A DNA stretch of 29,663 nt, from positions 1 to 29,663 of the IMG/VR virus record IMGVR_UViG_3300018018_000024; one strand, written 5' to 3'. Numbering within the stretch: position 1 is the first letter of the stretch; each line of letters opens with the position of its first letter. Shown here piece by piece: positions 2,360-9,915 of the stretch. The stretch is from a virus. Made by a program: the position numbers and the translations under genes. The notes under the pieces were generated by a model. That model saw only the letters and a program-made list of their open reading frames with translations, ran no database searches and was not told the DNA's origin.

Positions 2360-2662
2360 TTACTTTTTATCCCAGCAACTCGACCCCACCTCTACCGTGT
2401 CTTTACTCGTCAGGTCCAAGTGGAATCCCAGTCCGCAAATCTGGCACCCCTCTATGAAGGCCGGGGGACCGGCGCGGTGAACCAAATCGAACGACAGGCG
2501 AACCCATAACGGCTCGCCATGATAGGTGGCGCGGTATTCATCGACAAGTTTCTTCACCCGCCCTTCAATTTCAAGACGCAGCATATCCGCTTTCAGTACA
2601 TGGCGCAGGTGGGCGGTGGGGGTGCCGTCTATAATTTGGGTTGTGGTGTCGGTTGCAGCCAT
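2360..2662 (-). CDS. Hypothetical protein with one CxxC pair
   Basis: A 100-residue protein (MAATDTTTQIIDGTPTAHLR at the start). Its C-terminal half has a single CQICGLGFHLDL segment (about residues 73-84) and a further Cys near the end (GSSCWDKK), which might bind a metal, although a full four-ligand site is not evident. The gene begins 34 nt inside the end of the diphosphohydrolase gene, so the two are translated together. I do not recognise the family. Confidence 0.65.
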   Translation of the reverse strand: MAATDTTTQIIDGTPTAHLRHVLKADMLRLEIEGRVKKLVDEYRATYHGEPLWVRLSFDLVHRAGPPAFIEGCQICGLGFHLDLTSKDTVEVGSSCWDKK

Positions 2663-3009
2663 TTAATGTCATCCAACTCCTTGGGAAGCAAACCCCCCTT
2701 AATACGCTCTGCCGTCTCTAAAAACGCTACGGCATTCCATGCCATGGCTCGATCATGGCGTTCATCATGTTCTCCGCCTAGTACCTTAAAGGCATGGCGG
2801 AGCATGGAATCCATAAATACACCAAGGTACATGCCCTTCTCCCAATTTCGGTCTTGGTACTTTACCGCGCCTTGCTGGAAATGGATGGCGAGTTCCCGCA
2901 TTGCCCTTGGTGGAAGCAGATCATAACGTCCCTTGTCATGAGTTACATCCCGCACCGCGCCCGTGGGAAATTCACGCCGCTGACCGGAGTCCTTAATCGC
3001 CCCGCTCAT
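2629..3009 (-). CDS. dATP/dGTP diphosphohydrolase-like protein (DUF5664 type)
   Basis: A 126-residue all-helical protein that I recognise as the phage dATP/dGTP diphosphohydrolase N-terminal family (formerly DUF5664). It shows the characteristic RYDLLPPRAMRELAIHF, GAVKYQDRNWEKG, SMLRHAFKVLGGE and DRAMAWNAVAFLE segments; acidic and His residues in the last two suit metal-dependent nucleotide hydrolysis as in MazG-like folds. Family members remove dNTPs from the pool, in some phages in connection with modified-base genomes. The start is the ATG at 3007-3009, overlapping the exonuclease stop as ATGA and preceded by GAGGAAG 5 nt upstream. No other Z-genome gene (PurZ, DatZ) is visible, so base substitution is not implied. 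Confidence 0.75.
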   Translation of the reverse strand: MSGAIKDSGQRREFPTGAVRDVTHDKGRYDLLPPRAMRELAIHFQQGAVKYQDRNWEKGMYLGVFMDSMLRHAFKVLGGEHDERHDRAMAWNAVAFLETAERIKGGLLPKELDDIKWLQPTPQPKL

Positions 3010-3773
3010 ACACACTTCCTCATCTTAATTTCCTTGCCCACCTTCTCTGCCCGCCCATGCCCCCACGCCCCGCAAGACTGGCACTGGTAGCGTTGTGTCA
3101 CACGGGAGGAGGCGATGTTGTAGCCCTTCTTCTGCACCTTGAGGGAGCCGCAAACTGGGCAGCGGGCCTTGCCATCCTTGCCGCAGGAGAAGAGGGAGAC
3201 GTTGGCGTGCTTGCCCGCGAGGGAACGGAGCTTGAGATAAGCAGCTTCCAATACCTCAATATCACGAGCACAGTGCGTGGCTATGTAATTAATAGAAGGG
3301 CGATGGCCGGACATGGCGCGAATCCACACTGGGCGCTTGATCGGAGTTTTCTCCGGTAAATCTAGCAATTCTACGATAGCTCCAAGCCGGTTGCTAGTGA
3401 GGGCGAGTTTGGTCTTGGCGATATGCCACGTATCCACCTCCTTGATGGGTGGCAGGGGCGAGAGGCCGTGATAGAGGAGTCGGGTATTGAGAAAACGGCG
3501 GTCGAATCGCCCGCTACTACCGTAATGCGTCACGAGAATATCTGCCTTGGAGAGCACTTTTGCCAAAGCCGCTACCAATTTCTTGTCATTGGTAGGATCA
3601 GTACGGAAACCCCGGAATTGGTCAACTCTGATTATCTTGACATCTTTATCACCGAGGAACTTGTAACCCACGCAAATAGCGAACCCAAAGTCCGCAAAAA
3701 GCGAGCTGCATTCTAAGTCCCAAAAGCATATTTTTGCATCTCCAGAATATACCGCATCATCGAGTTGTGACAT
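3006..3773 (-). CDS. RNase H-fold 3'-5' exonuclease with C-terminal zinc ribbon
   Basis: A 255-residue protein. The N-terminal 180 residues fit the DEDD exonuclease / YprB-like RNase H fold: FWDLECSS gives Asp19 and Glu21, THYGSSGRFDRRFLNTR gives Asp91, and YIATHCARDIEVLEAAY gives Asp171. The C-terminus is a four-Cys zinc ribbon (CPVCGS at 205-210 and CQSCGA at 231-236) that probably binds nucleic acid. It likely trims or degrades DNA during phage replication or host takeover. The frame is open further upstream, but the ATG at 3771-3773 gives the natural N-terminus (MSQLDDAVYSG). It lies 8 nt after a 44-codon gene and overlaps the next one by 4 bp. Confidence 0.8.
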   Translation of the reverse strand: MSQLDDAVYSGDAKICFWDLECSSLFADFGFAICVGYKFLGDKDVKIIRVDQFRGFRTDPTNDKKLVAALAKVLSKADILVTHYGSSGRFDRRFLNTRLLYHGLSPLPPIKEVDTWHIAKTKLALTSNRLGAIVELLDLPEKTPIKRPVWIRAMSGHRPSINYIATHCARDIEVLEAAYLKLRSLAGKHANVSLFSCGKDGKARCPVCGSLKVQKKGYNIASSRVTQRYQCQSCGAWGHGRAEKVGKEIKMRKCV

Positions 3774-4505: not shown

Positions 4506-5090
4506 ATGCCCGACCAGCCCCCCGCCCCTCCGCCTAGCGGAGCCATTGTCTCTGCAACTACGCCCGAATCCGCCCTCCTTCAACCCCGCAAGGTCAACCG
4601 TCTCTCCGCCCCGCGCCACGAGGATTCTTTCGTTCCTTGCCTTAAAATCAAGCGCATCCGAGGTAAAGAACTGGCACCGGAGCCGGTCATGGTGCCGATG
4701 GACATTCTCGCCAACCAAAACCGCGAGATCATCGTGGCAGAATTGGCGCGGCAATTTTTAACGGGCGTATTGGATGACTGGCAGGATAAAGGCACTAAAC
4801 TCACCCCACAAGAATTAAAGCAGACCATGGAGGCTATTAAGATCGCTAATGAGAACTGCCGCTTCGCCCACGAAGGTATCGCCCTCCCGCCCACCCCGGC
4901 CAGTGGAGGCGAGGGTAAGGGCGGTGTGTTGGCCAAGGCGATGGAGGGGTTGGGCAAAGGGTTGGCGGCGGGGAAGACGCCCACGGAGGAAGAGCTGATG
5001 AAAAAGTTCAAGGAGTTGGGGCGGAAGCTGAATGAGAAAGAGGTGAAGGAAGGGGAGGCGGTTGAGGTAAAAGCCGAGGAGAAAAAGTGA
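4506..5090 (+). CDS. Possible terminase small subunit
   Basis: A 194-residue protein directly upstream of the terminase large subunit and overlapping its GTG start by 4 bp, the usual place for the small subunit that recognises the packaging site. The N-terminus is Pro/Ala-rich (MPDQPPAPPPSGAI). The middle has a helical segment, ILANQNREIIVAELARQFL, then LTPQELKQTMEAIKIANENC. The C-terminus is Lys/Glu-rich. A clear helix-turn-helix is not visible, so the call rests mostly on position. The start is the ATG at 4506, just after the promoter. Confidence 0.5.
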   Translation: MPDQPPAPPPSGAIVSATTPESALLQPRKVNRLSAPRHEDSFVPCLKIKRIRGKELAPEPVMVPMDILANQNREIIVAELARQFLTGVLDDWQDKGTKLTPQELKQTMEAIKIANENCRFAHEGIALPPTPASGGEGKGGVLAKAMEGLGKGLAAGKTPTEEELMKKFKELGRKLNEKEVKEGEAVEVKAEEKK

Positions 5091-8000
5091 CTCTCGCGCA
5101 GTTAAAGTTTTTACACTCTCTCCTCGACGGCCAAGATCACGAGCGGTGGAAGCAGGCCGCCAACCTCATCTTGGCAGAAAGGGGGATGGGCGAGGTGAGG
5201 GATAGCTTTGACCTCGCCGACAAGGTAATCCGCCAGTTCTTACAGGACTTGTTGGACGCAGAGGATTACGAGGGGGCGGCGGCGCTTTTGTGGCATGAGA
5301 AGATGTTCAGCCTTGGCCCTAAATTTGTGCAGGATGTAATGCGGGTCATGCACGACCATCACCTCATTTTATTGCAAGGGGCCAGCTCGACGAGCAAAAC
5401 TTTTACAAGTGCCGTCTATATGTTCTTGGATTGGCTACGCGACCCCGCCCTCACCTCCACTAAAATTCTCTCCCGCGATGAAGGGCACCTACGCGCCAAT
5501 GCTTTTGGAGCCATCCGTACCATGTTCTACAACATGGCCATCCCGTGGGCAGACATGGATGACGTGGTGGACCGCGATAGCGACCTTTACTTGGGGTTGA
5601 GGTCGGCGGGGAAGGAGTTCGGTTTTCAAGGCATTTCCTTCAAACAATCCTATGAAGCAACGGGTGCCTTGCAGGGCTATCATCCCCGCCCCTACCGCAA
5701 GTTCGATCACCCCAAGTTTGGGCGACTTTCCAGAATAAGAATTTTGGGCGATGAGTGTTTTCCGGGCGACCAACGGGTGTTAATGGAGGATGGAAGACAA
5801 CTCGCTATATCGGATATTGTGAACCGCCGCATTACTGATAGAGTTCTCTCATTCAATACAGCCACGGGCAAGATAGAAAAACGAGTAATTTGCGGGTGGC
5901 ATAAAATATCCTCACGAGGCAGGAAGATTGTGGAAATTTGCGGAGCGCGGATGACCGCCAACCACCCCGTTTATACGAAAGAACTCGGCTATATCTGCGC
6001 AGATGAGGCGATGAAGAAACGTCTTACAGCCATTACAATTTATGATAAGAGCCATACGGGATGCGGAACAACTCACCAAAGAACAACGGTCGCTAGTGAT
6101 AGGAGGACTGCTCGGAGACGCAAGCATAGGAATGAAGTCGGGCAAAAAATGCAATGCTTGCGTATGCTTTACTCAGGGGGTGGCCCAACTCGATTACCTC
6201 AAGTGGAAGCAACAGATAATGGATTCATTTGCCCCATATCAAATAAGGGGTCCGCAATACACGCAATTCGGAGGGATCGTGTACCGCCTTCGTACCCAAT
6301 GCCACCCGAGGTTCACGGAGATATTACACGTCATATATCCCAACGGAAAGGATGGTGGAAAAAGAATGACACCACAGATTTTCGAATGGCTCGACCCAAT
6401 GGCGATAGCTATCTGGTTCATGGACGACGGCAACATGTACAGGGCGAAAGGATGCAAAACAATCATTGCCAATCTGGCTTCTTACTTCATGCAGGAATTG
6501 GATGTGGACATGACCGTAGATTTTCTCAAGGCCAGAGGGTTAGAGTGCAGGAAAAAACCCGACAAGGGGAAAAATACAATCGTCTTCACCGCCGAAGGCT
6601 CCAGAAATCTAGCGGAGATGGTACGGCCATTCATTCATCCAGCCCTTTCCTACAAACTCACGGGCGAAAAGTGTCCGCCAAGGCCGCAGATAATTCCAAA
6701 TCTCAATGCACCAATCATGGAGGAGTGTGTCATGTGCGGAAAAATTTTCAGGAAGTTTGGGATGGCAACCACTTGCGGCCCAGAGTGCAGCCGCGCCAAA
6801 TTTCAAATTCTAGGCAGTCGTTCTTACAAGATAACGAGGCAGTTTACTGTATCGACGTTGCCGGAAACCACAACTTCTTTATTGAGGGAACCCTAGTTCA
6901 TAACTGTGCGGATTGGCCAGAAGGACCGTTCAAGGGGCTCGCCTCCCCAATCTCCTCCATCTCCGACGAGGGCCACGTTAAGATCGTCCTTACCTACAAC
7001 CCGGTCGGCGTGGACCGCCATGTGGTGCAGATGGCCGAGCCGGAACAAGGCTGGCTTTTGGAGGAGTGTGAGACGCTTTACGAGTGGGTCAGCAAAGAGG
7101 GTTGGCACGTACTGCGGCTGGATGCGAAACTAAGCGAGAATGTCGTCCAGCGCAAGATGATCTACCCCGGCATCCAGAACTTCGAGGGCTACATGCAGAA
7201 ATTGCGGGGCGAGGGGGACACGAGCAGCGCCTTCTATTGCTTCGGTCGGGGCTGGCCGCCCCTCCAAACCCAAGTCCACACCGTCTTCCCGCCCTCGTGG
7301 CCCACCACCCAGCGGGGCGAGGCGCTCTTTGATGAACTCATTTGCGTGTGGGGCTCGGTGGACTGCGCCTATCAGGGAATTGACAAGGTGGTGATGACGG
7401 TGGGGCGGTTTGGCTTTGCGAGCGGGTGGACCAAGGCGAACGGGGAGGTGGTGAAGTTCACCGATCCCACCAACCCCAAAAACTTCAAGTCCCGCCCCGT
7501 CTTGCAGGCCGACCAGCAGATCATGCTGGAGAAGAGCGACAACACCGTGACTCTAGCCAATGAGATCATCGGCAAGTGCAAGATGATGGGCATCGACCCG
7601 CAGTGGTTTGTGATCGATGGCAGTGCGGCGGGACAGGGCACGGCCTCCCACCTCACCACCTACTGGGGCAACGTGCTCGTACTCTACTGGGGCAAGGGTT
7701 CAACCAACTTCAAAGTGCTGGCCGAGGACAAGCAGCTTGCCAACGAGCGGTATCAGGGGCTCCCCTCCGAACTCTGGTTTGCCGCGAAGGAGTGGATGAA
7801 CCCGGAAGTGTGCGCTTTTCTCATCAACCCAATTATTTCTCCCAATCCCCTCAACACGGAACTATCTACGCGGAGAGCACATCCCGTTAAAGGCAAGATG
7901 TGCGTCGAAGCGAAAGAAATTTATAAAAGTCGAAATGCGGGCAAGTCTCCAGACTGTTTTGTTGCCGGGACGTTGGTATCTACACCCTACGGCGACACAC

Positions 8001-9112
8001 CCATAGAACAACTTTCCGTGGGAGATAAGATTATCACGCCATTTGGACCAACGCACATTATTGCGAAACACATTGATGAAGTGGATTGCATTACCACGGC
8101 CACCATGTCTAACGGCAGCACCCTTTCCGGCAAGGGAAAGCATCATGTTTTTGTATGGGGGAAGGGGTGGATAAAATTATCTGATTTAGAGCTTGACATG
8201 ATAATTGAGTCGGTACATCATGCGTGGATATGGAATATCCTAAGTCGGTTGTTTACAAAGGCGTCAACTATTTCCTTCAAAGCACTGGTAGATACTATCA
8301 AGATGGACACCGCGATGCGCCGGAGAGACTTTTACACCGAGTCATCTGGATTGAGCACAATGGGCCTATTCCGGGCGGCCTGCACGTCCATCACAAGAAT
8401 GGCGATTGGACAGATAACCGAATCGAGAATATGGAACTTCTGTCAGCATCCGCCCATTCGCGGTTGCATTATCCCGGCATCATATCAATGCCGGGAGTTA
8501 GAGAAGCCGTCGAAGCCGGACGGCAAAAAGCCATCAAACTTGCACCCCTATGGCACCGATCTATCGAAGGACTGGCGTGGCACAAAGCCAATGGAATACA
8601 GGGATGGCTCAAGCGAAAGTTCGTTGAAAAAATCTGCGTCATCTGCGGCAAACGGTTCTCCACCAAATTTGTGCACATGCACGACTGTTGTTCCAAAAAA
8701 TGCGCTATTATCAAAAACAATAAAAAGGCTTATTGCCTTCCTGTGCACTGCGAAATATGCGGTGCGCTCTTTATGGCTAATAAGTTTAGGCCGGGGAGGT
8801 ATTGCAGTCGAAAGTGTTGTTATGCGACACGTAAAGAATCCCGTGCCAGTCTACAACCTCACCCTAGCCGAACATAACGTGTATTATGCTAACGGCGTTT
8901 TGGTTGAGAATTGCGCAGATTCCCTCCTCATGGGAGTGACGCTCATTCGCCAGCGCGCTTCGGTCTTGCCCGGCATGGCTACCATGCAGGACAACCGCCC
9001 CAAGAAAGAGGAGGAGGGGGGCATAATAATTGTAGACTCCACTACCCCGCAACGGAAGATATTGGACATGGGGTGGGATGATAAAAACGCGGGGGAGGGG
9101 CTTAGGCTATGA
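5087..9112 (+). CDS. terL: Terminase large subunit with two inteins
   Basis: A 1341-codon gene, GTG start. After removal of two inteins (383 and 319 residues) the mature product would be about 639 residues, normal for a packaging motor. The ATPase part has a deviant Walker A, GASSTSKT (residues 98-105), and Walker B ILGDE ending at Asp222-Glu223, exactly where intein 1 begins. The nuclease part has SVDCAYQG (Asp759), VIDGSAAG (Asp844) and SPD-CADSL (Asp956, with Asp1278 after the intein), exactly where intein 2 sits. Activity therefore requires both splicing events. The gene overlaps its neighbours by 4 bp on both sides. In the two intein interiors the frame stays open although it reads as the shadow of endonuclease genes. 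Confidence 0.93.
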   Translation: MTLAQLKFLHSLLDGQDHERWKQAANLILAERGMGEVRDSFDLADKVIRQFLQDLLDAEDYEGAAALLWHEKMFSLGPKFVQDVMRVMHDHHLILLQGASSTSKTFTSAVYMFLDWLRDPALTSTKILSRDEGHLRANAFGAIRTMFYNMAIPWADMDDVVDRDSDLYLGLRSAGKEFGFQGISFKQSYEATGALQGYHPRPYRKFDHPKFGRLSRIRILGDECFPGDQRVLMEDGRQLAISDIVNRRITDRVLSFNTATGKIEKRVICGWHKISSRGRKIVEICGARMTANHPVYTKELGYICADEAMKKRLTAITIYDKSHTGCGTTHQRTTVASDRRTARRRKHRNEVGQKMQCLRMLYSGGGPTRLPQVEATDNGFICPISNKGSAIHAIRRDRVPPSYPMPPEVHGDITRHISQRKGWWKKNDTTDFRMARPNGDSYLVHGRRQHVQGERMQNNHCQSGFLLHAGIGCGHDRRFSQGQRVRVQEKTRQGEKYNRLHRRRLQKSSGDGTAIHSSSPFLQTHGRKVSAKAADNSKSQCTNHGGVCHVRKNFQEVWDGNHLRPRVQPRQISNSRQSFLQDNEAVYCIDVAGNHNFFIEGTLVHNCADWPEGPFKGLASPISSISDEGHVKIVLTYNPVGVDRHVVQMAEPEQGWLLEECETLYEWVSKEGWHVLRLDAKLSENVVQRKMIYPGIQNFEGYMQKLRGEGDTSSAFYCFGRGWPPLQTQVHTVFPPSWPTTQRGEALFDELICVWGSVDCAYQGIDKVVMTVGRFGFASGWTKANGEVVKFTDPTNPKNFKSRPVLQADQQIMLEKSDNTVTLANEIIGKCKMMGIDPQWFVIDGSAAGQGTASHLTTYWGNVLVLYWGKGSTNFKVLAEDKQLANERYQGLPSELWFAAKEWMNPEVCAFLINPIISPNPLNTELSTRRAHPVKGKMCVEAKEIYKSRNAGKSPDCFVAGTLVSTPYGDTPIEQLSVGDKIITPFGPTHIIAKHIDEVDCITTATMSNGSTLSGKGKHHVFVWGKGWIKLSDLELDMIIESVHHAWIWNILSRLFTKASTISFKALVDTIKMDTAMRRRDFYTESSGLSTMGLFRAACTSITRMAIGQITESRIWNFCQHPPIRGCIIPASYQCRELEKPSKPDGKKPSNLHPYGTDLSKDWRGTKPMEYRDGSSESSLKKSASSAANGSPPNLCTCTTVVPKNALLSKTIKRLIAFLCTAKYAVRSLWLISLGRGGIAVESVVMRHVKNPVPVYNLTLAEHNVYYANGVLVENCADSLLMGVTLIRQRASVLPGMATMQDNRPKKEEEGGIIIVDSTTPQRKILDMGWDDKNAGEGLRL
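5756..6904 (+). mobile_element. Intein 1 of terminase, in Walker B site, with out-of-frame endonuclease
   Basis: A 383-residue intein, from Cys224 (CFPGDQRVLMEDG, block A) to VHN (ending at 6904), followed by the +1 extein Cys (TGT 6905-6907). Block B is seen as ARMTANHPVYT. Blocks F and G appear as VYCIDVAGNHNFFIEGT and LVHN. It splits ILGDE from CADWPEG at the terminase Walker B. Hint residues cover about the first 95 and last 35 residues. The roughly 250 in-frame residues between them (from about 6040 to 6800) have the odd Arg/His/Gln-rich composition of a frameshifted shadow, and a LAGLIDADG gene occupies this DNA in the +1 frame. Class 1-type splicing (Cys1, His-Asn, Cys+1) looks intact. 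Confidence 0.9.
6042..6896 (+). CDS. LAGLIDADG homing endonuclease, +1 frame inside intein 1
   Basis: A 284-residue frame shifted +1 relative to the terminase gene. It matches the LAGLIDADG DNA endonuclease family: LTKEQRSLVIGGLLGDASIG holds the first motif (residues about 18-30), the helix QLDYLKWKQQIMDSF follows, and AIAIWFMDDGNMY holds the second. A Cys-rich zinc-finger-like segment (CVMCGKIF then CGPECSR) is near the end; the last roughly 27 residues are the shadow of the intein C-terminal part. The enzyme would cut the intein-less terminase allele and spread the intein. ATG 6042 has no Shine-Dalgarno sequence. Expression by its own initiation, by frameshifting from the Hint frame (the +1 frame is open from 6015), or both, is undecided. 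Confidence 0.88.
   Translation: MIRAIRDAEQLTKEQRSLVIGGLLGDASIGMKSGKKCNACVCFTQGVAQLDYLKWKQQIMDSFAPYQIRGPQYTQFGGIVYRLRTQCHPRFTEILHVIYPNGKDGGKRMTPQIFEWLDPMAIAIWFMDDGNMYRAKGCKTIIANLASYFMQELDVDMTVDFLKARGLECRKKPDKGKNTIVFTAEGSRNLAEMVRPFIHPALSYKLTGEKCPPRPQIIPNLNAPIMEECVMCGKIFRKFGMATTCGPECSRAKFQILGSRSYKITRQFTVSTLPETTTSLLREP
8193..8221 (+). promoter_or_regulatory. Promoter inside intein 2, for the nested HNH gene
   Basis: TTGACA (8193-8198), a 17-nt spacer and CATCAT (8216-8221). The CATCAT element is identical to those at 10581 and 10986. The ATG of the HNH gene is 8 nt after the -10, the same distance as for the portal gene at 15016, so transcription would begin at or within a base or two of the start codon. 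Confidence 0.5.
8230..8877 (+). CDS. HNH homing endonuclease, +2 frame inside intein 2
   Basis: A 215-residue frame, +2 relative to terminase, starting MEYPKSVVYKG (a GTG two codons upstream is an alternative). It has an HNH_3-type core: LLHRVIWIEHNGPIPGG, then LHVHHKNGDWTDNRIENMEL and SASAHSRLH. Two zinc-finger-like Cys motifs follow (CVICGKRF with CCSKKC, and CEICGALF with CSRKCC). It would nick or cut the uninvaded terminase allele. The promoter at 8193-8221 and the leaderless spacing suggest expression independent of the terminase mRNA. The stop (8875-8877) lies within the intein C-terminal coding part. Confidence 0.87.
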   Translation: MEYPKSVVYKGVNYFLQSTGRYYQDGHRDAPERLLHRVIWIEHNGPIPGGLHVHHKNGDWTDNRIENMELLSASAHSRLHYPGIISMPGVREAVEAGRQKAIKLAPLWHRSIEGLAWHKANGIQGWLKRKFVEKICVICGKRFSTKFVHMHDCCSKKCAIIKNNKKAYCLPVHCEICGALFMANKFRPGRYCSRKCCYATRKESRASLQPHPSRT

Positions 9113-9915
9113 ACGAAGAAAATTTAGAGGTGCAACATGGCATGGCTATTCAGCAAGGCGTTAATGAACCGCTACGAGAACTCGCACTCTTTGCCGGTGC
9201 GGGCGGGGGAATCCTTGGGGGCAAACTGCTCGGATGGCGAACCGTCTGTGCCGTCGAAATCGACGCCTATGCCGCAAGCGTGCTTGTGGCACGGCAAAAC
9301 GACGGCTGCTTGGAAGCGTTTCCCGTCTGGGATGACGTGCGAACCTTTGACGGACGACCTTGGCGGAGCCGTGTTGACGTGGTTTCTGGCGGGTTTCCCT
9401 GTCAGGATATTAGTTCAGCAGGAAAGGGGATCGGAATTAATGGTGAACGAAGTGGACTATGGAAAGAATTTGTCCGAATCATTGGCGAAGTACGACCCCG
9501 TTTCTCATTCGTGGAAAACTCACCAATTCTCACTAGCAGGGGACTTGGAGTTGTTCTCGGAGACTTATTCGAATTGGGGTATGATGCGCAATGGGCAATT
9601 ATTGGAGGTAAAGACGCCAAAATGGATATTGACGGAAAGAGAATATGGATTATTGCCGCGTCCATGTGCAGGGGATTATCGGCGTGGAACAGTTCAAAAT
9701 TATCAAAAACTAAAGGCTTATCTACTGAGGCATCAACTATCCCTGCAAGATGTTCTCAATATGATCGGATTAGAAAATGGAGAACATGGACAAACAGACC
9801 CTATCTACACCGAAATAGCGATGGATTGGCCAATAGGGTGGACCGCCTTAAGGCCATTGGAAACGGCCAAGTTCCAGCAGTGGCTAGACTTGCATGGGAG
9901 ACATTAGCCCCATGA
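9109..9915 (+). CDS. DNA (cytosine-5)-methyltransferase
   Basis: A 268-residue C5-methyltransferase. Motif I is ELALFAGAGGGILGG (SAM binding). Motif IV is GGFPCQDIS with catalytic Cys98. Motif VI appears as FVENSP, where the usual ENV is ENS. Motif VIII-like KRIWIIAA follows, and motif X is LKAIGNGQVPAVA near the C-terminus. The variable region between about residues 185 and 240 is short and low in recognisable features, so the target-recognition domain is small. The gene overlaps the terminase stop by 4 bp. It probably methylates phage DNA against host restriction. A second long frame runs through the same DNA (9137-9907). Confidence 0.9.
   Translation: MNEENLEVQHGMAIQQGVNEPLRELALFAGAGGGILGGKLLGWRTVCAVEIDAYAASVLVARQNDGCLEAFPVWDDVRTFDGRPWRSRVDVVSGGFPCQDISSAGKGIGINGERSGLWKEFVRIIGEVRPRFSFVENSPILTSRGLGVVLGDLFELGYDAQWAIIGGKDAKMDIDGKRIWIIAASMCRGLSAWNSSKLSKTKGLSTEASTIPARCSQYDRIRKWRTWTNRPYLHRNSDGLANRVDRLKAIGNGQVPAVARLAWETLAP
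9137..9907 (+). CDS. Overlapping-frame protein inside the methyltransferase gene
   Basis: A 256-codon frame, +1 relative to the methyltransferase, open along almost its whole length. The first 100 residues look like the methyltransferase shadow. From the internal ATG at 9440 it reads like a real protein: SESLAKYDPVSHSWKTHQ, FSETYSNWGMMRNG, EREYGLLPRPCAGDY, LSLQDVL and DWPIGWTALRPLETAKFQQW. I recall this pattern (KYDP..S.WKT, WG.MRNG, GLLPTP, WPIGWT.L) from many phage and prophage proteins annotated beside or inside cytosine methyltransferase genes. No function is known to me. The real start may be 9440 rather than 9137. Confidence 0.5.
   Translation: MAWLFSKALMNRYENSHSLPVRAGESLGANCSDGEPSVPSKSTPMPQACLWHGKTTAAWKRFPSGMTCEPLTDDLGGAVLTWFLAGFPVRILVQQERGSELMVNEVDYGKNLSESLAKYDPVSHSWKTHQFSLAGDLELFSETYSNWGMMRNGQLLEVKTPKWILTEREYGLLPRPCAGDYRRGTVQNYQKLKAYLLRHQLSLQDVLNMIGLENGEHGQTDPIYTEIAMDWPIGWTALRPLETAKFQQWLDLHGRH

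Follow-up and report, generated by a model that had tools for sequence, protein, structure and literature searches.

A separately encoded HNH endonuclease overlapping a terminase intein in another reading frame, and its relatives beyond a single viral contig

The window, i.e., the whole stretch of DNA analysed, is an entire virus record of 29,663 bases, where the gene of the large terminase subunit (TerL) carries two inteins, each overlapped by an endonuclease gene in another reading frame (Table 1). Once both inteins (382 and 319 residues) are subtracted, TerL amounts to 640 residues. Intein 2 begins at codon 957 of the TerL gene (nt 7955) with Cys1 and finishes with a terminal Asn, directly followed by a Cys at position +1, where inteins have a Cys, Ser or Thr; its penultimate residue is a Glu where a His is usual, which counts against the explanation preferred below. 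Residues C1 and H63 of the N-terminal Hint half are invariant in 13/13 aligned sequences (alignment A3); in alignment A7, C1 and N319 are invariant. The Hint splicing domain lies in the frame of the host protein and, among the members of the family scanned, Hint_2 was found in 32/32 and Intein_splicing in 27/32. When intein 2 is modelled by AlphaFold in the TerL frame, the pLDDT is around 90 for residues 1-80 and 84-93 for residues 281-319, with residues 155-252 of the linker below 50, and the top Foldseek matches of this model are intein and intein-like structures. A reading of the region as a group I or group II intron was discarded, Rfam giving no match at all in 4900-9300 at E-values up to 0.5.

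Table 1. Coordinates of the terminase gene, its two inteins and the overlapping endonuclease genes in the window.
Feature	Position	Strand	Evidence
TerL gene with two inteins	5087..9112	+	Uninterrupted 1341-codon ORF; PHROG terminase large subunit matches
Intein 1, 382 residues, TerL frame	5756..6901	+	Pfam Intein_splicing and Hint matches; site empty in L261
LAGLIDADG_2 endonuclease gene in intein 1, frame TerL+1	6042..6896	+	PF03161, E 2.6e-25
Intein 2, 319 residues, TerL frame	7955..8911	+	Hint_2, E 7.3e-10; Intein_splicing, 0.0068; AlphaFold Hint halves; Foldseek intein matches
Intein 2, N-terminal Hint half (Cys1, block-B-like His63)	7955..8218	+	Alignment and pLDDT
HNH endonuclease gene, frame TerL+2, 215 residues from ATG 8230	8230..8877	+	HNH_3, E 6e-18; phrog_15471 HNH endonuclease, 5e-21; model
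HNH_3 domain	8329..8463	+	Domain match
Putative zinc finger 1 (C136, C139, C154, C158)	8635..8703	+	Four Cys invariant in 31/31 aligned members
Putative zinc finger 2 (C174, C177, C192, C196)	8749..8817	+	Four Cys invariant in 31/31 aligned members
Intein 2, C-terminal Hint half, ending NVYYANGVLVEN before Cys+1	8795..8911	+	pLDDT and alignment

The HNH gene occupies the place where inteins usually hold an in-frame endonuclease. The HNH_3 domain is present in 33/33 members scanned, and the copy in the window is intact with every invariant residue. Its AlphaFold model reaches a mean pLDDT of 93 and has the homing enzyme I-HmuI as best fold match in the PDB (E 0.012, probability 0.98), which is a weak match; a search of the HNH profile against PDB sequences gave no match. 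The preliminary description of this DNA had proposed that intein 2 combines Hint blocks in the terminase frame with an HNH_3-type protein in the +2 frame, and that two endonuclease families are nested in two different frames of one gene; the former is confirmed by Pfam, AlphaFold and Foldseek, and the latter holds as well, with LAGLIDADG_2 in TerL+1 within intein 1 and HNH_3 in TerL+2 within intein 2. Directly downstream of TerL, a C5-cytosine methyltransferase ORF (9109-9915; PF00145, 1.7e-25) pairs with a 256-codon ORF (9137-9907), which has a phrog_1008 match and tblastn relatives in 27 phage records; this almost full overlap makes a third nested pair.

Across the HNH overlap, the TerL frame is devoid of stop codons against 10.8 expected in random DNA of the same composition. 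The absence of stops had been pointed out in the preliminary description together with an expectation of about 10, a figure that is right for random DNA only; under a null in which protein sequence and codon usage of the HNH are both preserved, 3.7 stops are expected (P 0.0115), and 3.2 under synonymous permutation of the HNH codons (P 0.0105). HNH codon usage alone, which might have cleared the other frame of stops, leaves several of them expected. As for the third frame over the HNH gene, it contains 12 stops where 12.0 are expected. Considered alone, intein 2 of the window (P about 0.01) is suggestive of an openness beyond chance, and intein 1 alone is the stronger case, its TerL frame over the LAGLIDADG gene having no stop against 8.6 expected and none of 5000 simulations being stop-free. 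Since the window by itself gives modest odds, it is the relatives that decide whether the overlap goes beyond chance.

With the window HNH as query, six loci were found, four of which (L001-L004) align with most of the query at 40-44% identity; in each of these four, the HNH lies in +2 inside an open TerL-intein ORF. A profile search of virus contigs with the HNH led to the examination of the best 80 of 242 loci. Besides, a census was ascertained through Hint, virus contigs being searched with Hint-N only so as to avoid selection by overlap; it took in the best 80 of 277 matches (profile A3) and the best 80 of 313 (profile A4), whose union comprises 153 loci and 105 distinct Hint sequences. 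In 96/105 distinct Hint sequences, the HNH is placed in +2 and the host frame continues open beyond it, a rate that describes this Hint clade rather than all TerL inteins as both Hint-N profiles were built mainly from nested inteins. An in-frame HNH occurs in 0/105, a different HNH in +1 in 1/105 (L250), and no HNH in 8/105. Among the members lacking an HNH, the contigs of L122 and L172 end early; with lengths of 124-152 residues, L172, L175, L208, L212, L223 and L230 count as mini-inteins, and L192 also reads as one. Of the host ORFs scanned, 8/8 match the PHROGs terminase large subunit, partly via intein-spanning profiles. Further away, six more distant Hint matches in phage records include none with this nested HNH (0/6) and one mini-intein in a TerL. 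The census host frames taken together have 0 stops against 213.1 expected, and chance openness is rejected across the family. The search of metagenomic phage terminases suggested at the outset therefore did return inteins with an out-of-frame endonuclease, the HNH being always in +2 in those 96, and it is confirmed that the nested out-of-frame design is real and extends far beyond the window. The window being a single metagenomic contig, sequencing or assembly indels could in principle have displaced an HNH domain of the usual in-frame kind into another frame; such an error, already deemed unlikely in the preliminary description, is now excluded for practical purposes, the same frame relation with an open host frame recurring in these 96/105 distinct Hint sequences as well as in the phages TJE1, Highwayman and LS06, and the stop-free host frame (against 213 expected) being conserved across independent assemblies. 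The overlap looks like an established lifestyle of selfish elements, not a sequencing error.

Free-standing and split versions of the same endonuclease serve as controls. HNH homologues occur in 89 phage records, of which 12 regions were examined: 4/12 (TJE1, Highwayman, LS06 and MT838676) are nested and free of host stops, and 8/12 are free-standing with 1-11 host-frame stops each. The records of Tetrasphaera phage TJE1, Acinetobacter phage Highwayman and LS06 annotate TerL alone at the overlap. Over 15 clusters of free-standing HNH relatives, 85 host-frame stops were counted against 79.0 expected. A Met followed by a codon starting with A, which makes a host stop unavoidable, is seen in 0 of 163 cases in nested clusters versus 10 of 33 in free-standing ones, bearing in mind that the nested class in this cluster comparison is partly defined by the absence of stops, from which the Hint census is free, and that same-contig loci recur before clustering. 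In the Vibrio phages 1.245.O (L270) and 1.238.B (L271), the ORF encoding the N-terminal part of TerL and IntN comes to a stop, the HNH comes next in +2, and a separate ORF holds IntC with the C-terminal part of TerL; host-frame stops number 14 in each, against 11.8 and 11.7 expected, respectively. In Brochothrix phage BL3 (L269, gp2/gp3), an apparent natural split TerL intein has an HNH remnant between its halves. All three apparent split TerL inteins (L269, L270 and L271) are deposited as separate genes.

As regards which frame is under selection, differences in the overlap between 14 pairs of relatives fall on HNH codon positions 1/2/3 in the numbers 494/347/898, and those in the Hint part of the same pairs on host positions 1/2/3 in the numbers 195/130/515, as is usual for a host frame (16 pairs, duplicates not removed). 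The substitutions thereby show selection in the HNH frame and, because HNH position 3 is TerL position 2, the TerL-frame linker is free to vary while staying open. The HNH copy could still be regarded as a fossil, with present selection solely on the TerL frame, given that decayed relatives exist: much of the HNH is deleted in L101/L102 with the intein frame still open to its C-terminal end, L039 has a nonsense codon in the HNH with the host frame intact, and 2/96 nested census HNHs have internal stops. Yet the window HNH is intact and third positions of the HNH are the most variable among relatives, which makes the fossil reading highly improbable. The converse case, counting against the preferred explanation, is met in L020, where one host-frame stop stands beside an intact HNH. 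Concerning the choice of frame, the unused frame of 100 nested clusters has 1348 stops against 1451 expected, whereas the null for the used frame is 215.7; a nested HNH in +2 therefore had far fewer stops to lose, and the +2 placement was probably favoured since HNH codons much more rarely create stops in this partner frame than in the other.

For its expression, a start codon candidate for the HNH is available in 112/112 loci, and Shine-Dalgarno-like 4-mers precede candidate starts in 44/112 loci against 17.4 expected; no such match was found before the HNH start of the window, nor before 15 of 21 other starts examined. Alternatively, the HNH might be made as an IntN-HNH fusion by -1 ribosomal frameshifting instead of from its own start, TerL+2 being equivalent to a -1 shift and a canonical slippery heptamer fitting within the allowed stretch in 16/112 loci. 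This is rather unlikely with 96/112 loci lacking such a heptamer, a start candidate at every locus, the enrichment of Shine-Dalgarno-like motifs, and an HNH frame in the window that opens at 8209, just 21 nt upstream of the ATG.

Alleles devoid of inteins are known for the host gene. Both intein sites are empty in 5/5 intein-free TerL relatives found (L261-L265, of which L264 and L265 are near-copies), and the TerL of L261 shows 75% identity across the 351 residues used in the search and spans 641 codons from stop to stop. At the site of intein 2, these alleles read SPD then E, S, E, A and A, and the window SPD then Cys after the intein; the identity of 0.33 over 600-nt flanks in this comparison comes from unaligned stretches and is not meaningful. 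The two sites presumably correspond to the Walker B and nuclease motifs of TerL. The nested family uses several TerL insertion sites, namely SPD before Cys, SPDxxDAL before Cys, and others. Compared with the window, L022, L028, L044 and others show that one and the same nested family occupies two adjacent TerL sites a few residues apart.

Taken as a whole, intein 2 would belong to a long-established family of mobile TerL inteins in which the homing endonuclease is translated on its own from an overlapping gene, a reading to which a probability of roughly 0.82 is given. On this model, (i) the TerL frame would yield Hint-N, a non-conserved linker and Hint-C, and the intein is predicted to splice itself out of TerL; (ii) the +2 frame would yield a separate HNH/zinc-finger homing endonuclease, presumably initiated at its own internal ATG; (iii) as suggested by the families involved and the empty sites, the HNH would cut intein-free terL at a conserved site and repair would copy the intein together with the gene; and (iv) selection on TerL would keep the overlap without TerL-frame stops and selection for homing would keep the HNH residues. 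The HNH may instead mainly assist the terminase in packaging or regulation and be no homing enzyme, bearing in mind that free-standing HNH relatives adjoin terminase genes and that the HNH of phage HK97 acts with its terminase, according to the available part of PMC10448857. However, inteins holding an HNH occupy several TerL sites, with empty alleles in relatives, natural HNH deletions and mini-inteins keep the TerL frame open, and the top structural match, albeit weak, is a homing enzyme, so a mere packaging role is unlikely.

Beyond this family, L250 harbours, around 2555-3550 in another Hint ORF, a nested HNH with a zinc finger that differs from the window HNH; this 275-residue protein in +1 leaves 0 host stops against 15.2 expected, none of 3000 simulations being stop-free. 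As this HNH and the LAGLIDADG of the window are both nested in another frame, recurrence is supported. The preliminary description went further in proposing a recurrent way for free-standing endonucleases to invade mini-inteins: nesting does recur (HNH_3 in +2, LAGLIDADG in +1, the L250 HNH in +1), whereas trees without a root do not establish the invasion. The HNH tree mixes nested with free-standing forms, with four changes of unrooted direction, e.g., Highwayman, which is nested, has the free-standing BP10 as its sister (SH-aLRT 98); in the Hint tree, which is weak with 123 columns only, mini-inteins are scattered (seven changes versus a shuffled mean of 6.8). Mini-inteins as descendants via in-frame decay of the HNH are equally plausible, and the window HNH is no fresh invasion because it is part of an old and widely inherited intein and HNH family. 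Distance correlations (Hint-HNH 0.50, Hint-TerL 0.41 and HNH-TerL 0.48) leave co-transfer and vertical descent unseparated. For intein 1, its Hint as query found no relatives, and relatives of its LAGLIDADG come down to one locus (L099), with no Hint around the LAGLIDADG frame. A search for relatives in genome contigs gave one weak match only. The Halobacterium plasmid pGSL19_54.9 (L267), possibly a provirus, carries next to a portal gene a Hint ORF with the same HNH nested in it and 0.9 expected host-frame stops, which is uninformative taken alone. It seems fairly likely that coding in two frames is a stable way of life for phage inteins and has evolved several times, HNH_3 (+2), LAGLIDADG (+1) and the distinct HNH of L250 (+1) each having arrived at it independently, the frame being chosen by stop load, with split inteins and mini-inteins as alternative outcomes.

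Inteins are taught as a single polypeptide that unites a splicing domain with a nuclease domain, while about a hundred distinct Hint sequences keep splicing and nuclease as two overlapping genes. As a natural data set on long overlaps coding in two frames, the family is large and brings its own controls in the free-standing, split and deleted forms; it also opens the origin of partnerships between intein and nuclease to testing, and may explain long inteins that appear inert. For annotation, it means that one gene of each overlapping pair is missed.

Among known systems, the fractured genes that Dassa reportedly described in 2009 are split inteins around a free-standing homing endonuclease gene (HEG). 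Here too, a HEG lies between intein halves, and the family has its own split versions, those of the Vibrio phages 1.245.O and 1.238.B and the remnant of BL3, but the intein of the window is one continuous ORF instead of halves on separate ORFs. The canonical large inteins of mycobacteriophage TerL, as far as covered by the accessible part of PMC5050341, share the Hint fold, the nuclease between the Hint halves and the insertion in TerL; in these, however, the nuclease is a domain of the intein, whereas in the window it is a separate overlapping gene in +2. Collaborative homing refers to free-standing HEGs adjoining introns (PMC10448857, available portion) and is akin to the free-standing HNH relatives next to terminase genes, unlike the HEG of the window, which lies inside the splicing element and in another frame. 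In the full-text literature searched, available mostly as titles and starts of abstracts, no out-of-frame endonuclease in a true intein was found, and the preprint 10.1101/2025.01.02.630785 on non-canonical intein architecture, cited by PMC11855218, may describe cases. In DNA methylase ORFs of L058, L060, L077 and L084, ShiLan-like out-of-frame HNH ORFs occur that lack an immediately surrounding Hint; in L060, the methylase additionally bears a separate Hint intein. The ShiLan domain itself, an insertion in a mycobacteriophage methylase with a hidden out-of-frame HNH (2025; PMC11855218, seen in part), is the closest precedent of intein 2, i.e., an out-of-frame HNH without an intein. According to the same portion of that source, an HNH with zinc fingers likewise sits in another frame of a continuous stop-free host ORF, as in the window, and the insertion spreads between phages; but the ShiLan insertion has no Hint or splicing domain and resides in a non-essential methylase, whereas the window has a complete Hint and thus a complete intein, in TerL.
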